From: Acidobacteriota bacterium
GTDB taxonomy: Bacteria; Acidobacteriota; UBA6911; RPQK01; JAJDTT01
Assembly (NCBI GenBank): GCA_022827025.1
Contig: JAJDTT010000075.1
Span: forward strand, 1-64,000
Direction of reading: 5' to 3'
Length of the DNA: 64,000 nucleotides
Shown here: positions 31,950-38,609 of the stretch, piece after piece
Layout of the letters: every line of letters starts with the position of its first letter
How positions within the stretch are numbered: the stretch's first letter is position 1
Position numbers and translations under genes: made by a program
The notes under the pieces: generated by a model
Databases searched by the model: none
Seen by the model: the letters and a program-made list of their open reading frames with translations, nothing else
What the model was told of the DNA's origin: nothing

Positions 31950-32789
31950 GTGAAGGATTTCCTGGAACGGCTGTTAGGTTTGAAGGTCCCCGAGGCTCAA
32001 CTGGAGGGGCCGCGAGACCCATATAACATCTACGAATGGGATCTCGACGACCGGAGGCCGATGGTGGTCGCCGCCATCCTGGCCGTCCTCTTTCACGCAG
32101 TTCTCCTGTTGATGGTCTTCCCCTCGTTCGGCGAGACGGTCCTGGTCCCGACCCAGCAGGTCCTGGTGCTCAAGAATCTGGCGAAACCCGCGGCCCTGAC
32201 CGGGGGCGGCGACCTGCCCAAGGCGACTCCGCCCAAGCCCAAACCGGTGAGGCCGAAGCCCAAGCCGATTCTGGTTCCCATCCCCGATCCGACTCCGAGA
32301 GACCCCGAACCCATCCGCAAGGAGGAGCTGGAGGACGTCCCCCAGGTCATCAAGCAGATGGTCGCGGAATTGAACCTGGACGACATCGAGGCTCCGCCGG
32401 GTCGTCCCGGCCGGGGAGGGCAGGGTGAGAGCCAGGGCGAGGGGACTGGAACCGGACCCCTTGCGGGCTCGGGACCCGCGGCCGGGGACGGCAGCGGCAT
32501 CTACCGATACGGGAGCGGGGTCACCAATCCCGTTCCCATCGTTCAGACGACTCCCAGTTACACCGACGCCGCCATCAAAGCCAAAGTTCAGGGTGTGGTC
32601 TGGCTTCAGGCCATCATCCGCAAGGATGGCAACGTCGACAGCTTCAAGGTCATTCGAGGCTTGGGCCACGGGTTGGAAGAACAGGCCATCCAGGAGATCG
32701 CCACCAACTGGCGTTTTCGACCCGGAATGCTCAACGGGAGTCCGGTCGACGTCCTGGCGACCATCGAAGTCCAGTTCAACCTGAGGTAG
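31950..32789 (+). CDS. TonB-family energy transducer
   Basis: A 279-residue TonB-like protein that would carry proton-motive-force energy from the inner membrane to outer-membrane receptors. About 35 cytoplasmic residues precede a single transmembrane segment (MVVAAILAVLFHAVLLLMVF, about residues 38-57). A proline/lysine-rich periplasmic spacer follows (PKPKPVRPKPKPILVPIP), then a Gly-rich stretch, then a C-terminal TonB domain: AKVQGVVWLQAIIRKDGNV, LEEQAIQEIATNWRFRPG. The start is GTG at 31950. The long cytoplasmic N-terminus is unlike E. coli TonB but common outside Proteobacteria. No exbB/exbD is adjacent. Confidence 0.87.
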   Translation: MKDFLERLLGLKVPEAQLEGPRDPYNIYEWDLDDRRPMVVAAILAVLFHAVLLLMVFPSFGETVLVPTQQVLVLKNLAKPAALTGGGDLPKATPPKPKPVRPKPKPILVPIPDPTPRDPEPIRKEELEDVPQVIKQMVAELNLDDIEAPPGRPGRGGQGESQGEGTGTGPLAGSGPAAGDGSGIYRYGSGVTNPVPIVQTTPSYTDAAIKAKVQGVVWLQAIIRKDGNVDSFKVIRGLGHGLEEQAIQEIATNWRFRPGMLNGSPVDVLATIEVQFNLR

Positions 32790-32823
32790 ACGACGCCTCC
32801 CGAATCGTACGTTACATGAATGG

Positions 32824-32876
32824 GGGCAACCACAAGAGTTGCCTCTACCAAGGAAGGGCAACCACAAGAGTTGCCC
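32824..32876. repeat. Two REP-like hairpins, direct repeat
   Basis: Two near-identical 21-nt units (32824-32844 and 32856-32876), 11 bp apart. Each has arms GGGCAAC and GTTGCCC (the first copy ends GCCT) around the 7-nt loop CACAAGA. They sit between the tonB stop and the ileS -10. The same unit with changes occurs at 41939 and 44447. Confidence 0.65.
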
Positions 32877-32895
32877 CCGCGCCGTCGTATCCCGC

Positions 32896-32901
32896 TATAA
32901 T
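32896..32901 (+). promoter_or_regulatory. -10 of ileS (leaderless type)
   Basis: Consensus TATAAT ends 10 nt before the ileS GTG at 32912. No Shine-Dalgarno and no clear -35. The 11 bases CTATAATTCCG are shared with the uvrC promoter. The absence of a leader rules out a T-box or other 5' UTR control of ileS. Confidence 0.55.
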
Positions 32902-32911
32902 TCCGGCTCTT

Positions 32912-35683
32912 GTGGTTGAAGCACTCGACCTGAAAGCAACCATCAACCTTCCCAGAACCCGTTTCCGGATGAAGGCGAATCTGCCCGTTCTGGAGCCGCG
33001 GATTCTCAAGTCGTGGGAAGAGTCGGGGATCTACTCCAAGATCCGCGCGGCGCGAACAGGAAGGCCTCGCTTCATCCTTCACGACGGCCCTCCCTACGCC
33101 AACGGGCATCTCCATGTGGGACACGCCCTGAACAAGATCCTCAAAGACCTCATCGTTCGTTCCAAGACCATGGAGGGTTACGATTGTCCATACGTGCCCG
33201 GGTGGGACTGCCACGGGCTGCCCATCGAGATCCAGGTCATGAACCGAAAGCGAACCGACCTGGACCCGTTGGAGGTGCGCCGCCGATGCCGGCGGCACGC
33301 CGCCAAGTTCGTGCGCATCCAGGGGAATGAGTTCCGTCGCCTGGGGGTCACGGGGGACTGGACGGCGCCCTACCTGACCATGAGCCATTCCTATGAAGCC
33401 GAGACGGCTCGGCTGCTGGGCGATTTCGTCGGCCGGGGAAGCGTCTACAAGGGTCTGAAGCCGGTTCATTGGTGCATTCACTGCGAGACGGCACTGGCCG
33501 AAGCGGAAGTGGAGTATTCGGAACATGTCAGTCCGTCGGTCTACGTCCGGTTTCCCGTGACGGGAGGACTTCATGGATTGGACATCGGGGCCCGCCCCGT
33601 CTCGGTTCTGATCTGGACCACGACCCCTTGGACCCTCCCCGCCAACCAGGGTCTCTGCTTTCATCCCGACTTCGAATACGCGTTGCTGGAGACCCGGGAC
33701 GAGGTTTTCATCCTGGCTGCCGATCTGGTTCCCCGAGTGGCCGAGGAGTGCGGTTGGGGCGACTACCGGATTCTGGGACGGCTCCGGGGCGCCGCCCTCG
33801 GCGGTCTCGAGTGCCGGCACCCATGGATTCCGCGCCGGTCCGCGGTCGTCTTCGGAGATCACGTCACCCTGGAACAGGGCACCGGAGTGGTCCATACCGC
33901 GCCCGGGCACGGGGAAGAGGACTACCGCCTGGGAATCGACAACGGTCTTGAGATCTATTGTCCGGTGGACGACTCGGGCCGGTTCCTGCCGGAGGTGGAT
34001 CACTTCGGAGGCATGCCCGTGTTCGAGGCCAACCCTTCCATCAACGCCCTGATGGCCCGGGAAGGCCATCTGGTCCGGGAAGGGCCGTTCCGGCACAGCT
34101 ATCCTCACTGCTGGCGCTGCCGCAATCCGGTCATCTTTCGCGCCACCGCCCAGTGGTTCATCAGCATGGACCGGGAAGACCTGCGCGGACGGGCGCTGCG
34201 CGAGATCGCGGGGGTGAAGTGGCTTCCGTCCTGGGGCCGGGAGCGGATCCATAACATGATCTCCACCCGGCCGGACTGGTGCATCAGCCGGCAGAGGACC
34301 TGGGGCGTTCCGATCATCGCCTTCTACTGCAGGGCCTGCGGCAAGATCCTGCTGGAGCGCGACATAATCGAACATGTGTCGCGGATCTTCGAGCGGGAGG
34401 GCGCCGACGCCTGGTACCGGAGACCGGCGTCAGAGCTGCTCCCCGAAGGCACCCGTTGCGCCTGTGGAAGCGAGGAGTTCGAAAAGGAGAAGGACATACT
34501 GGATGTCTGGTTCGACTCTGGGGTCAGCCATCACGTGCTGCGGAATACGCCGGGACTCGAATGGCCCGCGGATCTCTACCTGGAGGGTGGGGATCAGTTC
34601 CGGGGCTGGTTTCACAGCTCCTTGCTGGTAGGGGTCGGCGTCAGCGGCGGAGCTCCCTACCGTTCGGTCCTGTGCCATGGATGGACGCTGGATGCCGAAG
34701 GGAAGGCCATGTCCAAATCCAGAGGCAACGTCATTTCTCCCCAGGACATCATCAAGCGGGACGGCGCCGAGATCTTGCGTCTCTGGGTTGCGTCCATCGA
34801 CTACACCGAAGACGTCCGCCTGGGAGACGAGATCCTGTCCCGACTCCGGGACGCCTACCGCAAGCTGAGAAATACGAGCCGCTTCCTCTTGGGCAACCTT
34901 CAGGACTTCTCTCCGGAAATGGCCGTGCCGGACGGGGAACTGCTGGAGTTGGATCGTTGGGCTCTGGCTCACACCGCCGCCACGGCACGGCGCGTGGAGG
35001 AGGCCTACCGGAATTTCGAGTTTCACACCGTCTACCATTCCCTCTACCAGCTCTGTGTCGTGGGGCTTTCCAGTTTTTATCTCGACGTTCTGAAGGACCG
35101 CCTCTACGTCTCGGCGGCCGATTCGGGGGAACGAAGGTCGGCGCAGACGGCACTGTTCCGGATCGCGGACGCATTGGTCCGGCTGCTGGCTCCGATCCTG
35201 CCCTTCACCACGACCCAGATCTGGGAAGAACTCCACGGCCGGAACCCTCCGGCCGAGTCGGTCCACATGGCCGAGTTCTCCCGGGATCTGGACCGTTATG
35301 AGAATCCCGGGCTTCTGGAGCGATGGGAGCCGCTCCTGCGGATCCGCCACCAGGTCAGCAAGTCACTGGAGGAATGCCGCCGGGAGAAGCTCATCGGGAA
35401 CTCGTTGGAGGCGTCGGTCAGGATCGAGGCCGGCGCGGAGACTTGCAGGTACCTCGGCCGGTATGCGGAGGATCTGGCCACGGTCTTCATCGTCTCCGAA
35501 GTTGAAATCGAACAGAGGGAGGACCTGGCGGCGGATGAGACGCGGGTCACAGTGACCAGAACCCAGGCGAAGAAATGCGCGCGGTGCTGGAACCATCGAC
35601 GCTCGGTGGGGACCGATGCCGGTCTTCCGCACCTCTGCTTCCGATGCCGCTCGGTGTTGGAACGGATCGGCGCCCTCGCTTGA
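32912..35683 (+). CDS. ileS: Isoleucyl-tRNA synthetase
   Basis: A 923-residue class I synthetase charging tRNA-Ile. The GTG start at 32912 gives the bacterial N-terminus LKATINLPRTRFRMKANLPV, comparable to the usual 'TLNLPKTDFPMRANLP'. Then the HIGH motif as HLHVGHALNKI, the editing domain (TTPWTLPANQGLCFHPDF), the KMSKS motif as KAMSKSRGNVISP, the anticodon-binding domain, and a C-terminal zinc finger with CARCW and CFRC. It is therefore of the bacterial (IleS1, mupirocin-sensitive) type. First gene of ileS-lspA/lolA, with an apparently leaderless start. Confidence 0.97.
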   Translation: MVEALDLKATINLPRTRFRMKANLPVLEPRILKSWEESGIYSKIRAARTGRPRFILHDGPPYANGHLHVGHALNKILKDLIVRSKTMEGYDCPYVPGWDCHGLPIEIQVMNRKRTDLDPLEVRRRCRRHAAKFVRIQGNEFRRLGVTGDWTAPYLTMSHSYEAETARLLGDFVGRGSVYKGLKPVHWCIHCETALAEAEVEYSEHVSPSVYVRFPVTGGLHGLDIGARPVSVLIWTTTPWTLPANQGLCFHPDFEYALLETRDEVFILAADLVPRVAEECGWGDYRILGRLRGAALGGLECRHPWIPRRSAVVFGDHVTLEQGTGVVHTAPGHGEEDYRLGIDNGLEIYCPVDDSGRFLPEVDHFGGMPVFEANPSINALMAREGHLVREGPFRHSYPHCWRCRNPVIFRATAQWFISMDREDLRGRALREIAGVKWLPSWGRERIHNMISTRPDWCISRQRTWGVPIIAFYCRACGKILLERDIIEHVSRIFEREGADAWYRRPASELLPEGTRCACGSEEFEKEKDILDVWFDSGVSHHVLRNTPGLEWPADLYLEGGDQFRGWFHSSLLVGVGVSGGAPYRSVLCHGWTLDAEGKAMSKSRGNVISPQDIIKRDGAEILRLWVASIDYTEDVRLGDEILSRLRDAYRKLRNTSRFLLGNLQDFSPEMAVPDGELLELDRWALAHTAATARRVEEAYRNFEFHTVYHSLYQLCVVGLSSFYLDVLKDRLYVSAADSGERRSAQTALFRIADALVRLLAPILPFTTTQIWEELHGRNPPAESVHMAEFSRDLDRYENPGLLERWEPLLRIRHQVSKSLEECRREKLIGNSLEASVRIEAGAETCRYLGRYAEDLATVFIVSEVEIEQREDLAADETRVTVTRTQAKKCARCWNHRRSVGTDAGLPHLCFRCRSVLERIGALA

Positions 35684-35741
35684 AGTCCGGGATCATGCGG
35701 GACGTTTTTTTTCGGAAGCCGTCGGCGCCGCGGAGAAGACG

Positions 35742-37025
35742 ATGAAACTCCTGGCGATGGGAATTGCGGCGGTGGTGCTGGCGCTGGATCTCCTCACCAA
35801 GTGGTGGGTCAAGAGCACCGCCTGGCTGCACTACCACCAGGTCGTCGATGGTTTCTTCACGATCCACTTCGTCCGCAACGAGGGCATAGCCTTCGGCCTG
35901 TTTCATTCCAATCCTTCGGTGTGGAAACCGGTGATCCTTTCTGTCCTGGCCGTCGCGGCGGCGGTCATGGTGCTGTACTACATCTGGACCAGTCCGCCTG
36001 GGGAAAGAGGCGTCCAACTCTTCCTGGGGCTCCTGTTGGGAGGAATCCTGGGAAATTTCTGCGACCGGCTGTGGCGCGGTTATGTTGTCGATTTTCTGGC
36101 GTTTCATTGGCAGGACCGTTTCGCTTGGCCGACCTTCAATCTGGCCGATGCCGCAATCACCTGCGGAGTGGCGGCGATTCTCTACCAGGGCTTTTTCGGA
36201 ACGGGTGGCGGGGACCGGGCATCGAATCCGCCCAGCCGGAAAAACTCCGGCTCTTTGGGCGCGATTCTGCTGGCGGGTCTGCTCCCGGCGCACCTGTTGG
36301 GAGCATCGTCTTCTCCCGGAGCGCTGGAAGTCGTGGACCGTGTCCAGGACCGGTATGATCGGGTCGAAAGCTTCTCCACCGAATTCCGGCAGGTCTTTCA
36401 GTCGCAGGGGGTCTTTTTCGAAAGCGACTGGGGCGAGGGGATCCTGCTGATGAAGCGCCCTGGGAAAATGTACTGGGAATACCAGCGTCCCACCAGGAAG
36501 CTGTTCGTGGCCGACGGCAAACAGACCTTCTTCTACGTCCCCGGCGAGAACCAGGTGACGATCACCGACCTGGACCCGGAGACCGCGGATACGCCGCTGC
36601 TTTTCCTGCTGGGACCCAAACGGATCCGGGACGACTTCCTGGTGGAGTTCGAAACCGGGGAAGGGCCGTTGGACGAATCCAACCTGCTCCTTCGCTTGAC
36701 GCCCGTTCGGGCCCGGCCTGAATTCAGCTATCTGCTGTTGGAACTGTCCCCCCAGACCTGGCTCATCCGAAGATTGTCCGTAGTCGAGCCCATCGGGAAT
36801 CGGAACGACTACATATTCAGCCGTTTCCGGGAGAACGTGAAGATCCGCGACCAACAGTTCCGCCTGGAATTGCCGGACGGAGTGGAGATCATCCGAATCG
36901 GATCCGGCGCCGGTCTGAGGCCGGAGAGGGAGCCCGGCCGGTCTCCTCATCGAAGCCGGCTCGACGCCGGTGTGGAGACGGCTGCTGTGTCGACAACCCG
37001 TGGCAATAGCCGTCACGGACTGTAA
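35742..37025 (+). CDS. Signal peptidase II fused in frame to a LolA domain
   Basis: A single 427-residue frame. Residues 1-155 are LspA, the membrane aspartyl protease that cuts prolipoproteins: four hydrophobic segments, VRNEGIAFGLF, and both catalytic Asp, D108 in GNFCDR and D136 in FNLAD. After a short basic linker (residues 157-170) comes a fifth hydrophobic stretch, SLGAILLAGLLPAHLLGASS. Residues about 195-385 are a LolA fold, the periplasmic carrier that moves lipoproteins to the outer membrane: STEFRQVFQSQGVFF, GILLMKRPGKMYWEY, DGKQTFFYVPGENQV. GGAG precedes the ATG by 6 nt. Between the domains there is no stop or frameshift, and only a poor TTG (S171-L172) as an alternative start. Topology would leave LolA tethered on the periplasmic face. 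Follows ileS, precedes fabH. Confidence 0.88.
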   Translation: MKLLAMGIAAVVLALDLLTKWWVKSTAWLHYHQVVDGFFTIHFVRNEGIAFGLFHSNPSVWKPVILSVLAVAAAVMVLYYIWTSPPGERGVQLFLGLLLGGILGNFCDRLWRGYVVDFLAFHWQDRFAWPTFNLADAAITCGVAAILYQGFFGTGGGDRASNPPSRKNSGSLGAILLAGLLPAHLLGASSSPGALEVVDRVQDRYDRVESFSTEFRQVFQSQGVFFESDWGEGILLMKRPGKMYWEYQRPTRKLFVADGKQTFFYVPGENQVTITDLDPETADTPLLFLLGPKRIRDDFLVEFETGEGPLDESNLLLRLTPVRARPEFSYLLLELSPQTWLIRRLSVVEPIGNRNDYIFSRFRENVKIRDQQFRLELPDGVEIIRIGSGAGLRPEREPGRSPHRSRLDAGVETAAVSTTRGNSRHGL

Positions 37026-37039
37026 AGGAGAGTGCCGAG

Positions 37040-38044
37040 TTGAGCGAGATTCGGGCGAACATAACGGCCGTGGGGATGTACGTTCCGGAGAAACGCGTCA
37101 CCAACCACGACTTGAGCCGGGTTCTGGACACTTCCGACGCGTGGATTCGATCGCGCACCGGGATCTCGGAGCGCCGGATTGCCGGCAAGGACCAAGCCAA
37201 CAGCGACCTCTCGGTTCGGGCCATCCAGGATGCTTTGGAAGGTACGCCGCATCGCCCGGAAGACATCGATCTCATCATCGTCACGACCGTCACGCCGGAC
37301 ATGATGTTTCCTTCGACGGCGTGCCGGATCCAGGAGAAGATCGGGGCCGCCAACGCGTGGGGATTCGATCTTTCCGGGGCCTGCTCCGGATTCCTTTTCG
37401 GCCTCTCGACGGCTGCGCAGTTTATTCGGACGGGAACCCACAAGAAGGTCCTCGTGGTGGGTACCGATGTGATGAGCTCCATCATCGACTTCGAGGACCG
37501 GGCCACCTGCGTTCTATTCGGAGACGGCGCCGGGGCGGTCCTCCTTGAGCCCACCGAGGAGGAGGAGGTGGGCATCCTGGACTCGACCCTGGGGTGCGAC
37601 GGGTCGGGAGGGAAGTTCCTGTTCATGCCGGCCGGAGGGAGCCATCGCCCCGCAAGCCATGAAACCGTGGACAAGCGAATGCACTATGTCCACCAGGACG
37701 GGAGGAACGTCTTCAAGTTCGCGGTCCGGGTCATGTGCGACACTTCGGTCGGATTGCTCCAGCGAAACGGCATTCCCACCGATCAACTTTCGCTGTTCGT
37801 CCCCCACCAGGCCAACATGCGAATCATCAAGTCGTCCATGTCGCGCCTGAAATTGGCCGAGGATCAGGTTGCCGTCAACATCGACCGCTACGCCAACACC
37901 ACGGCGGCGACCATTCCCACCTGTCTGGCGGAAGCTCACCGTCAGGGGCGATTGAAGAAACGGGACAAGGTTCTCATGGTCTCCTTCGGAGCGGGATTCA
38001 CCTGGGGAGGCATTCTGCTCGGCTGGGGAATGGATCCGCCGTAA
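37040..38044 (+). CDS. fabH: Beta-ketoacyl-ACP synthase III
   Basis: A 334-residue KAS III, which condenses acetyl-CoA with malonyl-ACP to start fatty-acid synthesis. The catalytic triad is intact: Cys in SGACSGFLFGL, His in FVPHQANMRI, Asn in RYANTTAATIP. SRTGISERRIA and VLFGDGAGAVLLE are also typical. The start is TTG at 37040, with AAAGGAG 9 nt upstream overlapping the stop of the lspA-lolA gene, so the two are likely co-transcribed. plsX and fabD are not adjacent. Confidence 0.95.
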   Translation: MSEIRANITAVGMYVPEKRVTNHDLSRVLDTSDAWIRSRTGISERRIAGKDQANSDLSVRAIQDALEGTPHRPEDIDLIIVTTVTPDMMFPSTACRIQEKIGAANAWGFDLSGACSGFLFGLSTAAQFIRTGTHKKVLVVGTDVMSSIIDFEDRATCVLFGDGAGAVLLEPTEEEEVGILDSTLGCDGSGGKFLFMPAGGSHRPASHETVDKRMHYVHQDGRNVFKFAVRVMCDTSVGLLQRNGIPTDQLSLFVPHQANMRIIKSSMSRLKLAEDQVAVNIDRYANTTAATIPTCLAEAHRQGRLKKRDKVLMVSFGAGFTWGGILLGWGMDPP

Positions 38045-38084
38045 CTCGCAATACTGGGCGGGAGTCGCCTCGATCAGACACGCG

Positions 38085-38609
38085 TCAGATGAAGAGTTCT
38101 TCTTCGGGCGACTTGGCTCCGGTCTTTTTCTCTCGCCGTCCCAACAGAAACGACAGTCCCGACTGGATCCCTTTGAAGAAGGAACCGATTTCCAGAATGG
38201 GTCTCAAGACGTCCTTCTGAATCACTTCGCTGGTCTGCTCGAACTTCTCGACCGTGTCGGTGACCAACCCGTCCACTCGCTGGACCTGTTCGTTTCCCAG
38301 CCGAAGCACTTCCTTGACCAGGCCATCCACCTCCTCGGTGGTTCGTCGGAAGGCGCCCATCACGAAGCGGACGTTGTCGTTGAACTCATTGCCGAGTTGC
38401 CGCAACGGCTCCAGGCTCTCGGACACCTGGGTCAACTTGGTGCTGACCGACTCGACTGCGGCTTCGAGCCTCCGGGTCTCCTGCCGCAACTCCTCGGCCA
38501 TTTTTCGAACCGTCTTGGCCGCTCGCCACACGGATAGGGCCTGGAGGGTCATGGAGAGGGCGGTAATGCCGATGAACAGGATCAACAGGAGTTCAGGGCT
38601 CAAATGCAC
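38085..38609 (-). CDS. DUF948 (YtxG-like) membrane protein
   Basis: A 174-residue protein with one N-terminal transmembrane segment (LLLILFIGITALSMTLQAL) followed by a long helical, probably coiled-coil region (about residues 40-140) rich in Glu, Val and Leu, as in DUF948 proteins. Its role is unknown; in Bacillus the similar ytxG and ytxH genes belong to a stress-induced operon. The same pairing is seen here, with the YtxH-like gene 78 bp upstream. The start is uncertain: GTG at 38609 puts the membrane segment at once after the N-terminus, and an in-frame TTG at 38618 is the alternative. Convergent with fabH. Confidence 0.75.
   Translation of the reverse strand: MHLSPELLLILFIGITALSMTLQALSVWRAAKTVRKMAEELRQETRRLEAAVESVSTKLTQVSESLEPLRQLGNEFNDNVRFVMGAFRRTTEEVDGLVKEVLRLGNEQVQRVDGLVTDTVEKFEQTSEVIQKDVLRPILEIGSFFKGIQSGLSFLLGRREKKTGAKSPEEELFI

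Follow-up and report, generated by a model that had tools for sequence, protein, structure and literature searches.

The window, a 64,000-nucleotide stretch of a draft Acidobacteriota genome (GenBank assembly GCA_022827025.1, contig JAJDTT010000075.1; 5.33 Mb in 318 contigs, 98.8% complete), carries a single long gene in which lspA, for signal peptidase II, and lolA, for the lipoprotein carrier, are joined; such joined genes occur in one order of the phylum. A first-pass annotation made from the DNA sequence had read this gene as one uninterrupted 427-codon frame, and the frame was confirmed to be intact. A scan of positions 32500-38300 for a separate promoter at the lspA-lolA junction found no promoter-like site, a result that says little in this phylum.

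Table 1. Features of the lspA-lolA locus (positions in the window).
Feature	Position	Strand	Basis or remark
lspA-lolA fusion gene, 427 codons plus stop	35742..37025	+	Open frame, Pfam and NCBIfam
GGAG ribosome-binding-like sequence 5' of ATG	35732..35735	+	GGAGAAGACG-ATG identical in four congeneric genomes
LspA (signal peptidase II) domain, residues 1-152, four membrane helices, D108/D136 dyad	35742..36197	+	PF01252, TIGR00077, model, alignment to solved LspA
Linker, residues 153-171, presumed cytoplasmic, R/K ahead of hydrophobic core	36198..36254	+	Sequence
Fifth hydrophobic segment, residues 172-188, presumed retained LolA signal peptide	36255..36305	+	Length and place as in split LolA signal peptides
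Candidate signal peptidase I site LGA/SSS, after A188	within the 36255..36305 segment	+	Motif only permissive
TTG codon 172, sole possible internal start in the linker	36255..36257	+	Kept in four congeneric genomes, not in the other fused families
LolA domain, residues 196-386	36327..36899	+	PF03548, TIGR00547, fold match to solved LolA
Variable C-terminal tail, residues 387-427	36900..37022	+	Length and sequence differ among congeners
ileS, upstream neighbor, start codon uncertain	32816..35683	+	Pfam; gene order in relatives
fabH-like ketoacyl-ACP synthase III, downstream neighbor	37040..38044	+	Pfam; synteny

Judged by sequence and predicted fold, both halves of the encoded protein are ordinary members of their families. 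The N-terminal half matches Pfam Peptidase_A8 at residues 8-151 (128.5 bits; cut-off, 25) and passes the NCBIfam lspA equivalog TIGR00077 (114 bits against a cut-off of 73.95). D108 and D136, read in the first pass as the catalytic pair of a complete LspA with four membrane segments, are invariant across the fused proteins and fall on the GN..DR and FNxADxAIT motifs when aligned with the LspA structures 5dir and 9emz. Consistent with that reading, the confident part of the model has four helices and matches 5dir with a TM-score of 0.82-0.85 by target length. By sequence, catalytic Asp pair, and modeled fold, this half is a predicted signal peptidase II. It resembles known LspA (TIGR00077, PF01252; 5dir, 6ryo, 9emz) in equivalog score, four helices, Asp pair, and fold, and like lspA of E. 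coli it has ileS as a neighbor; however, the E. coli ileS-lspA arrangement lacks lolA, and the C-terminus of the fused protein, unlike that of known LspA, runs on into a fifth segment and a LolA domain.

The C-terminal half matches Pfam LolA at residues 207-375 (90.5 bits; cut-off, 23.6) and passes the NCBIfam lolA equivalog TIGR00547 with 120 bits against a cut-off of 112; scores in two other fused families are 141 and 138. TM-scores by target length are about 0.80-0.85 against several solved LolA structures, so that likeness to known LolA (TIGR00547, PF03548; 2w7q, 6f3z, 4ki3) extends from equivalog score to fold. The LolA domain also keeps the KRP..W motif, to which R43 belongs in E. coli LolA. 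In contrast to known LolA, most fused families have no lolA start codon of their own, and the signal peptide is internal, behind LspA. The earlier proposal of a complete LolA-like domain stands with a slight correction to its extent, since the domain ends near residue 386 and residues 387-427 form a poorly conserved tail. Congeneric proteins total 427, 429, 419, and 396 residues, the tail is absent in the other fused families, and it looks as though an older lolA stop was also lost.

The same two-domain architecture, with the same open junction, was found in all nine genomes (9/9) of three families of the order. The other three congeneric genomes carry the fusion at 86-90% identity, and three genomes of a second family and two of a third carry it at 44-52% identity; separate lspA and lolA genes did not appear at this locus in congeneric genomes, all of which keep the fusion. 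One carrier (G009) is assembled as a single 5.1-Mb contig. In another (G012), the gene is split over two contig ends in overlapping pieces, and the frame runs on across the junction in both. Alignment within the genus shows no indel in the first 390 codons, and pairwise dN/dS is 0.30-0.76 for the junction (codons 153-195) and 0.12-0.21 for the two domains. The junction thus evolves faster than the domains yet below 1, as expected of a translated, signal-peptide-like spacer. The linker of one fused protein (G011, L019) is ∼35 residues longer and includes QPTANCQLPTAF, which resembles a translated intergenic repeat.

In most other readable genomes of the class, lspA and lolA are separate and adjacent. 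No further fusion was present among the matches listed for 396 genomes sampled from the phylum, a list sorted by E-value and therefore with joined matches on top; any claim of rarity covers this sample of the phylum. The window's genus and several split-gene genomes share the gene order ileS-lspA-lolA-fabH, of which the other two fused families retain only a part. In two split-gene loci (G033, L011; G022, L069), the lspA stop and the lolA start lie in the same frame a few codons apart, so that loss of the stop codon alone would be enough for fusion. One genome (G016) has two lspA-lolA pairs, on contigs C328 and C1; its listed contamination is 6%, and one of the pairs may therefore be foreign. 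Tree building from the two domains gives no resolution for the fused families: the free tree requires two changes, and a single clade is not rejected (p-AU 0.44). By these comparisons the fusion may have arisen once, or two or three times.

A profile search identified the fusion as the only LspA match in the window's genome and the only locus above the PF03548 LolA cut-off. With a sole lspA and a sole canonical lolA, both functions must come from the fused gene. The first-pass annotation had seen a second lolA as a possible objection, and none appeared. The sole other LolA-like gene (G000:C158, L083:4849-5553, with a TTG start) scores 41 bits against the TIGR00547 cut-off of 112 and clusters with genes for MlaE, an Mla-type ATPase, MlaD, and a CDP-alcohol phosphatidyltransferase-like protein. 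We rejected it as a second true lolA because, by sequence, this score and these neighbors make it no replacement for LolA. Weak LolA-like matches of the same kind recur across the class, also in genomes with split genes. Signal peptidase I is encoded in all of the nine genomes tested (9/9). Lgt and LolC/E-like permeases are encoded as well, the latter with scores short of the curated LolCE cut-off, as is to be expected outside Proteobacteria. A profile search of nine genomes found no LolB above cut-off. Two genomes (G001 and G003) have a second lgt, of which the window's genome shows, on its corresponding contig, only a fragment matching the last quarter (G000:C134:7499-7675).

The topology of LspA places its C-terminus in the cytoplasm, so the LolA domain needs a translocating segment. 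This supports the earlier argument that a fifth segment is needed if LolA is to be periplasmic. A fifth hydrophobic stretch is indeed present, with its core at about residues 172-183. Its suggested origin as a LolA signal peptide fits both its place and its length, which match those of the signal peptides of split relatives: the hydrophobic core directly before LolA is 12-18 residues long in 9/9 fused proteins, split LolA signal peptides average 14.6 residues (19 proteins of the class), and the fused segment shows no gain in hydrophobicity over them. The segment has not been lengthened into a membrane anchor. Hydrophobicity alone cannot tell an anchor from a signal peptide here, since helices 3 and 4 of LspA are themselves only moderately hydrophobic. 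The TIGR00547 alignment starts at model position 8, inside the signal peptide of the model, in a fused protein (G006) just as in a split one (G013), and LolA begins within about 5-14 residues of the segment in fused proteins. Permissive AxA-like sites follow the segment in 9/9 fused proteins, weakly so in G006; the motif is permissive, and some true split signal peptides fail it too. A further point against the signal-peptide reading is that the linker of family f4 carries no net positive charge. Structure prediction, suggested in the first pass, gave, for the window's protein, two confident domains with a stretch of low confidence between them (AlphaFold); the low confidence of residues 165-189 is uninformative. 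In G009, the modeled fifth helix has only 12 residues.

The reading that we consider probable, with appreciable room for doubt, is that LspA and LolA are made as a polyprotein that keeps the LolA signal peptide as an internal segment, and that signal peptidase I cuts there to release LolA in soluble form. The gene would have originated from neighboring lspA and lolA genes when the stop of the first and the start of the second were lost, as synteny supports. The LspA part would insert with its C-terminus in the cytoplasm, in keeping with its known topology; the fifth segment, as the retained signal peptide, would then send the LolA domain into the periplasm, and signal peptidase I would cut after it, near residue 188. 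The predicted products, in a one-to-one ratio, are a soluble LolA of the usual kind and a membrane LspA that is ordinary apart from a short stub at its C-terminus. For bacteria that lack LolB, PMC11784454 gives the view that LolA carries out the last step of the pathway, at the outer membrane. With no LolB above cut-off, it is probably LolA itself that must travel to the outer membrane. A protein held in the inner membrane by about ten residues could not do so, which favors a polyprotein that is cut.

Alternatively, the protein could stay whole, with the fifth segment as a permanent anchor that keeps LolA beside LspA at the inner membrane. There LolA would receive lipoproteins just after maturation or hand them on, perhaps to a second carrier, for which the LolA-like protein of the Mla-type operon is a candidate. 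An uncleaved five-helix LspA-LolA would couple maturation physically to the chaperone step and leave the lipoprotein traffic of the order without a freely diffusing canonical LolA, an outcome that we consider improbable. A single chain is encoded in all three families, the distant LolA-like protein could serve as a second carrier, and the canonical cleavage sites of G006 are weak, all as a permanent anchor would have it. However, the segment is lengthened in 0/9 fused proteins, with the short modeled helix of G009 as an example, and the few residues between it and LolA are too short for spanning the periplasm. Moreover, the fused LolA domains pass the canonical LolA cut-off, which the paralog does not, and relatives of the paralog also occur in genomes with split genes. 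On balance, a permanent anchor seems unlikely, and from these comparisons we infer that release of LolA by cleavage, a condition that the first-pass annotation had already raised, is to be preferred. The first-pass interpretation therefore holds in part: a real fusion of complete LspA and LolA, the need for the fifth segment, and its signal-peptide origin are retained, and a carrier tethered at the site of maturation is not favored, given a signal-peptide-sized segment in 9/9 proteins, LolA within about 5-14 residues of it, and no LolB above cut-off.

A further alternative, to which we assign still less weight, is that LolA is also made alone by internal initiation at TTG172, giving LspA-LolA plus free LolA, or an upstream part that is only nominally joined. 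The codon is in frame and kept in the four congeneric genomes, and its use would uncouple LolA supply from LspA supply. Its conservation is not special, however, because four other Leu sites are also TTG in all four genomes. Initiation there would drop the positive n-region, and no strong ribosome-binding sequence lies 5' of it. In addition, G008 lacks any ATG, GTG, or TTG in the stretch from helix 4 to the late hydrophobic core, and in G012 no such codon precedes the hydrophobic core. As a general solution TTG172 was rejected, not being conserved across the fused families; as an extra route in the window's genus, initiation at this codon is possible. Self-cleavage by LspA at a lipobox was also rejected: the segment has no Cys, except in G011, where LLTC is not a standard lipobox. 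Finally, a sequencing or assembly error that artificially joined two genes through a missed stop or frameshift, conceivable in a draft of 318 contigs, is in practice refuted: nine genomes share the fusion at about 45-90% identity, one of them on a single contig, the genus shows no indel in 390 codons, and the codons across the junction are constrained.

To our knowledge, the LspA and LolA steps are carried out by separate proteins. The first-pass annotation knew of no described case of a fusion, and a literature search over titles, abstracts, and some passages likewise found no description of one. The closest precedent known to us, by analogy, is FbcH of Bradyrhizobium, a cytochrome b/c1 polyprotein. 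Both systems combine a polytopic membrane protein, an internal signal peptide, and a periplasmic domain, and the LspA-LolA protein has this layout in the same order: a polytopic domain predicted from LspA topology to end in the cytoplasm, a signal-peptide-sized segment, and a domain that would be periplasmic. The proteins are unrelated, however, and cleavage is known from experiment in FbcH but proposed from sequence for LspA-LolA. With regard to LolB, PMC11784454 describes a bifunctional LolA of Caulobacter that acts without it. Caulobacter, on that account, and the genomes studied here are alike in having LolA and no recognizable LolB; the Caulobacter protein differs in being encoded by a separate gene, unfused to LspA.

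Two steps of the lipoprotein pathway are made as one translation product in three bacterial families. If the product is cut, bacteria would here use a polyprotein with an internal signal peptide for a pathway that is normally essential, with LolA and LspA supplied one-to-one. If it is not, the protein would call into question the requirement that LolA diffuse across the periplasm.
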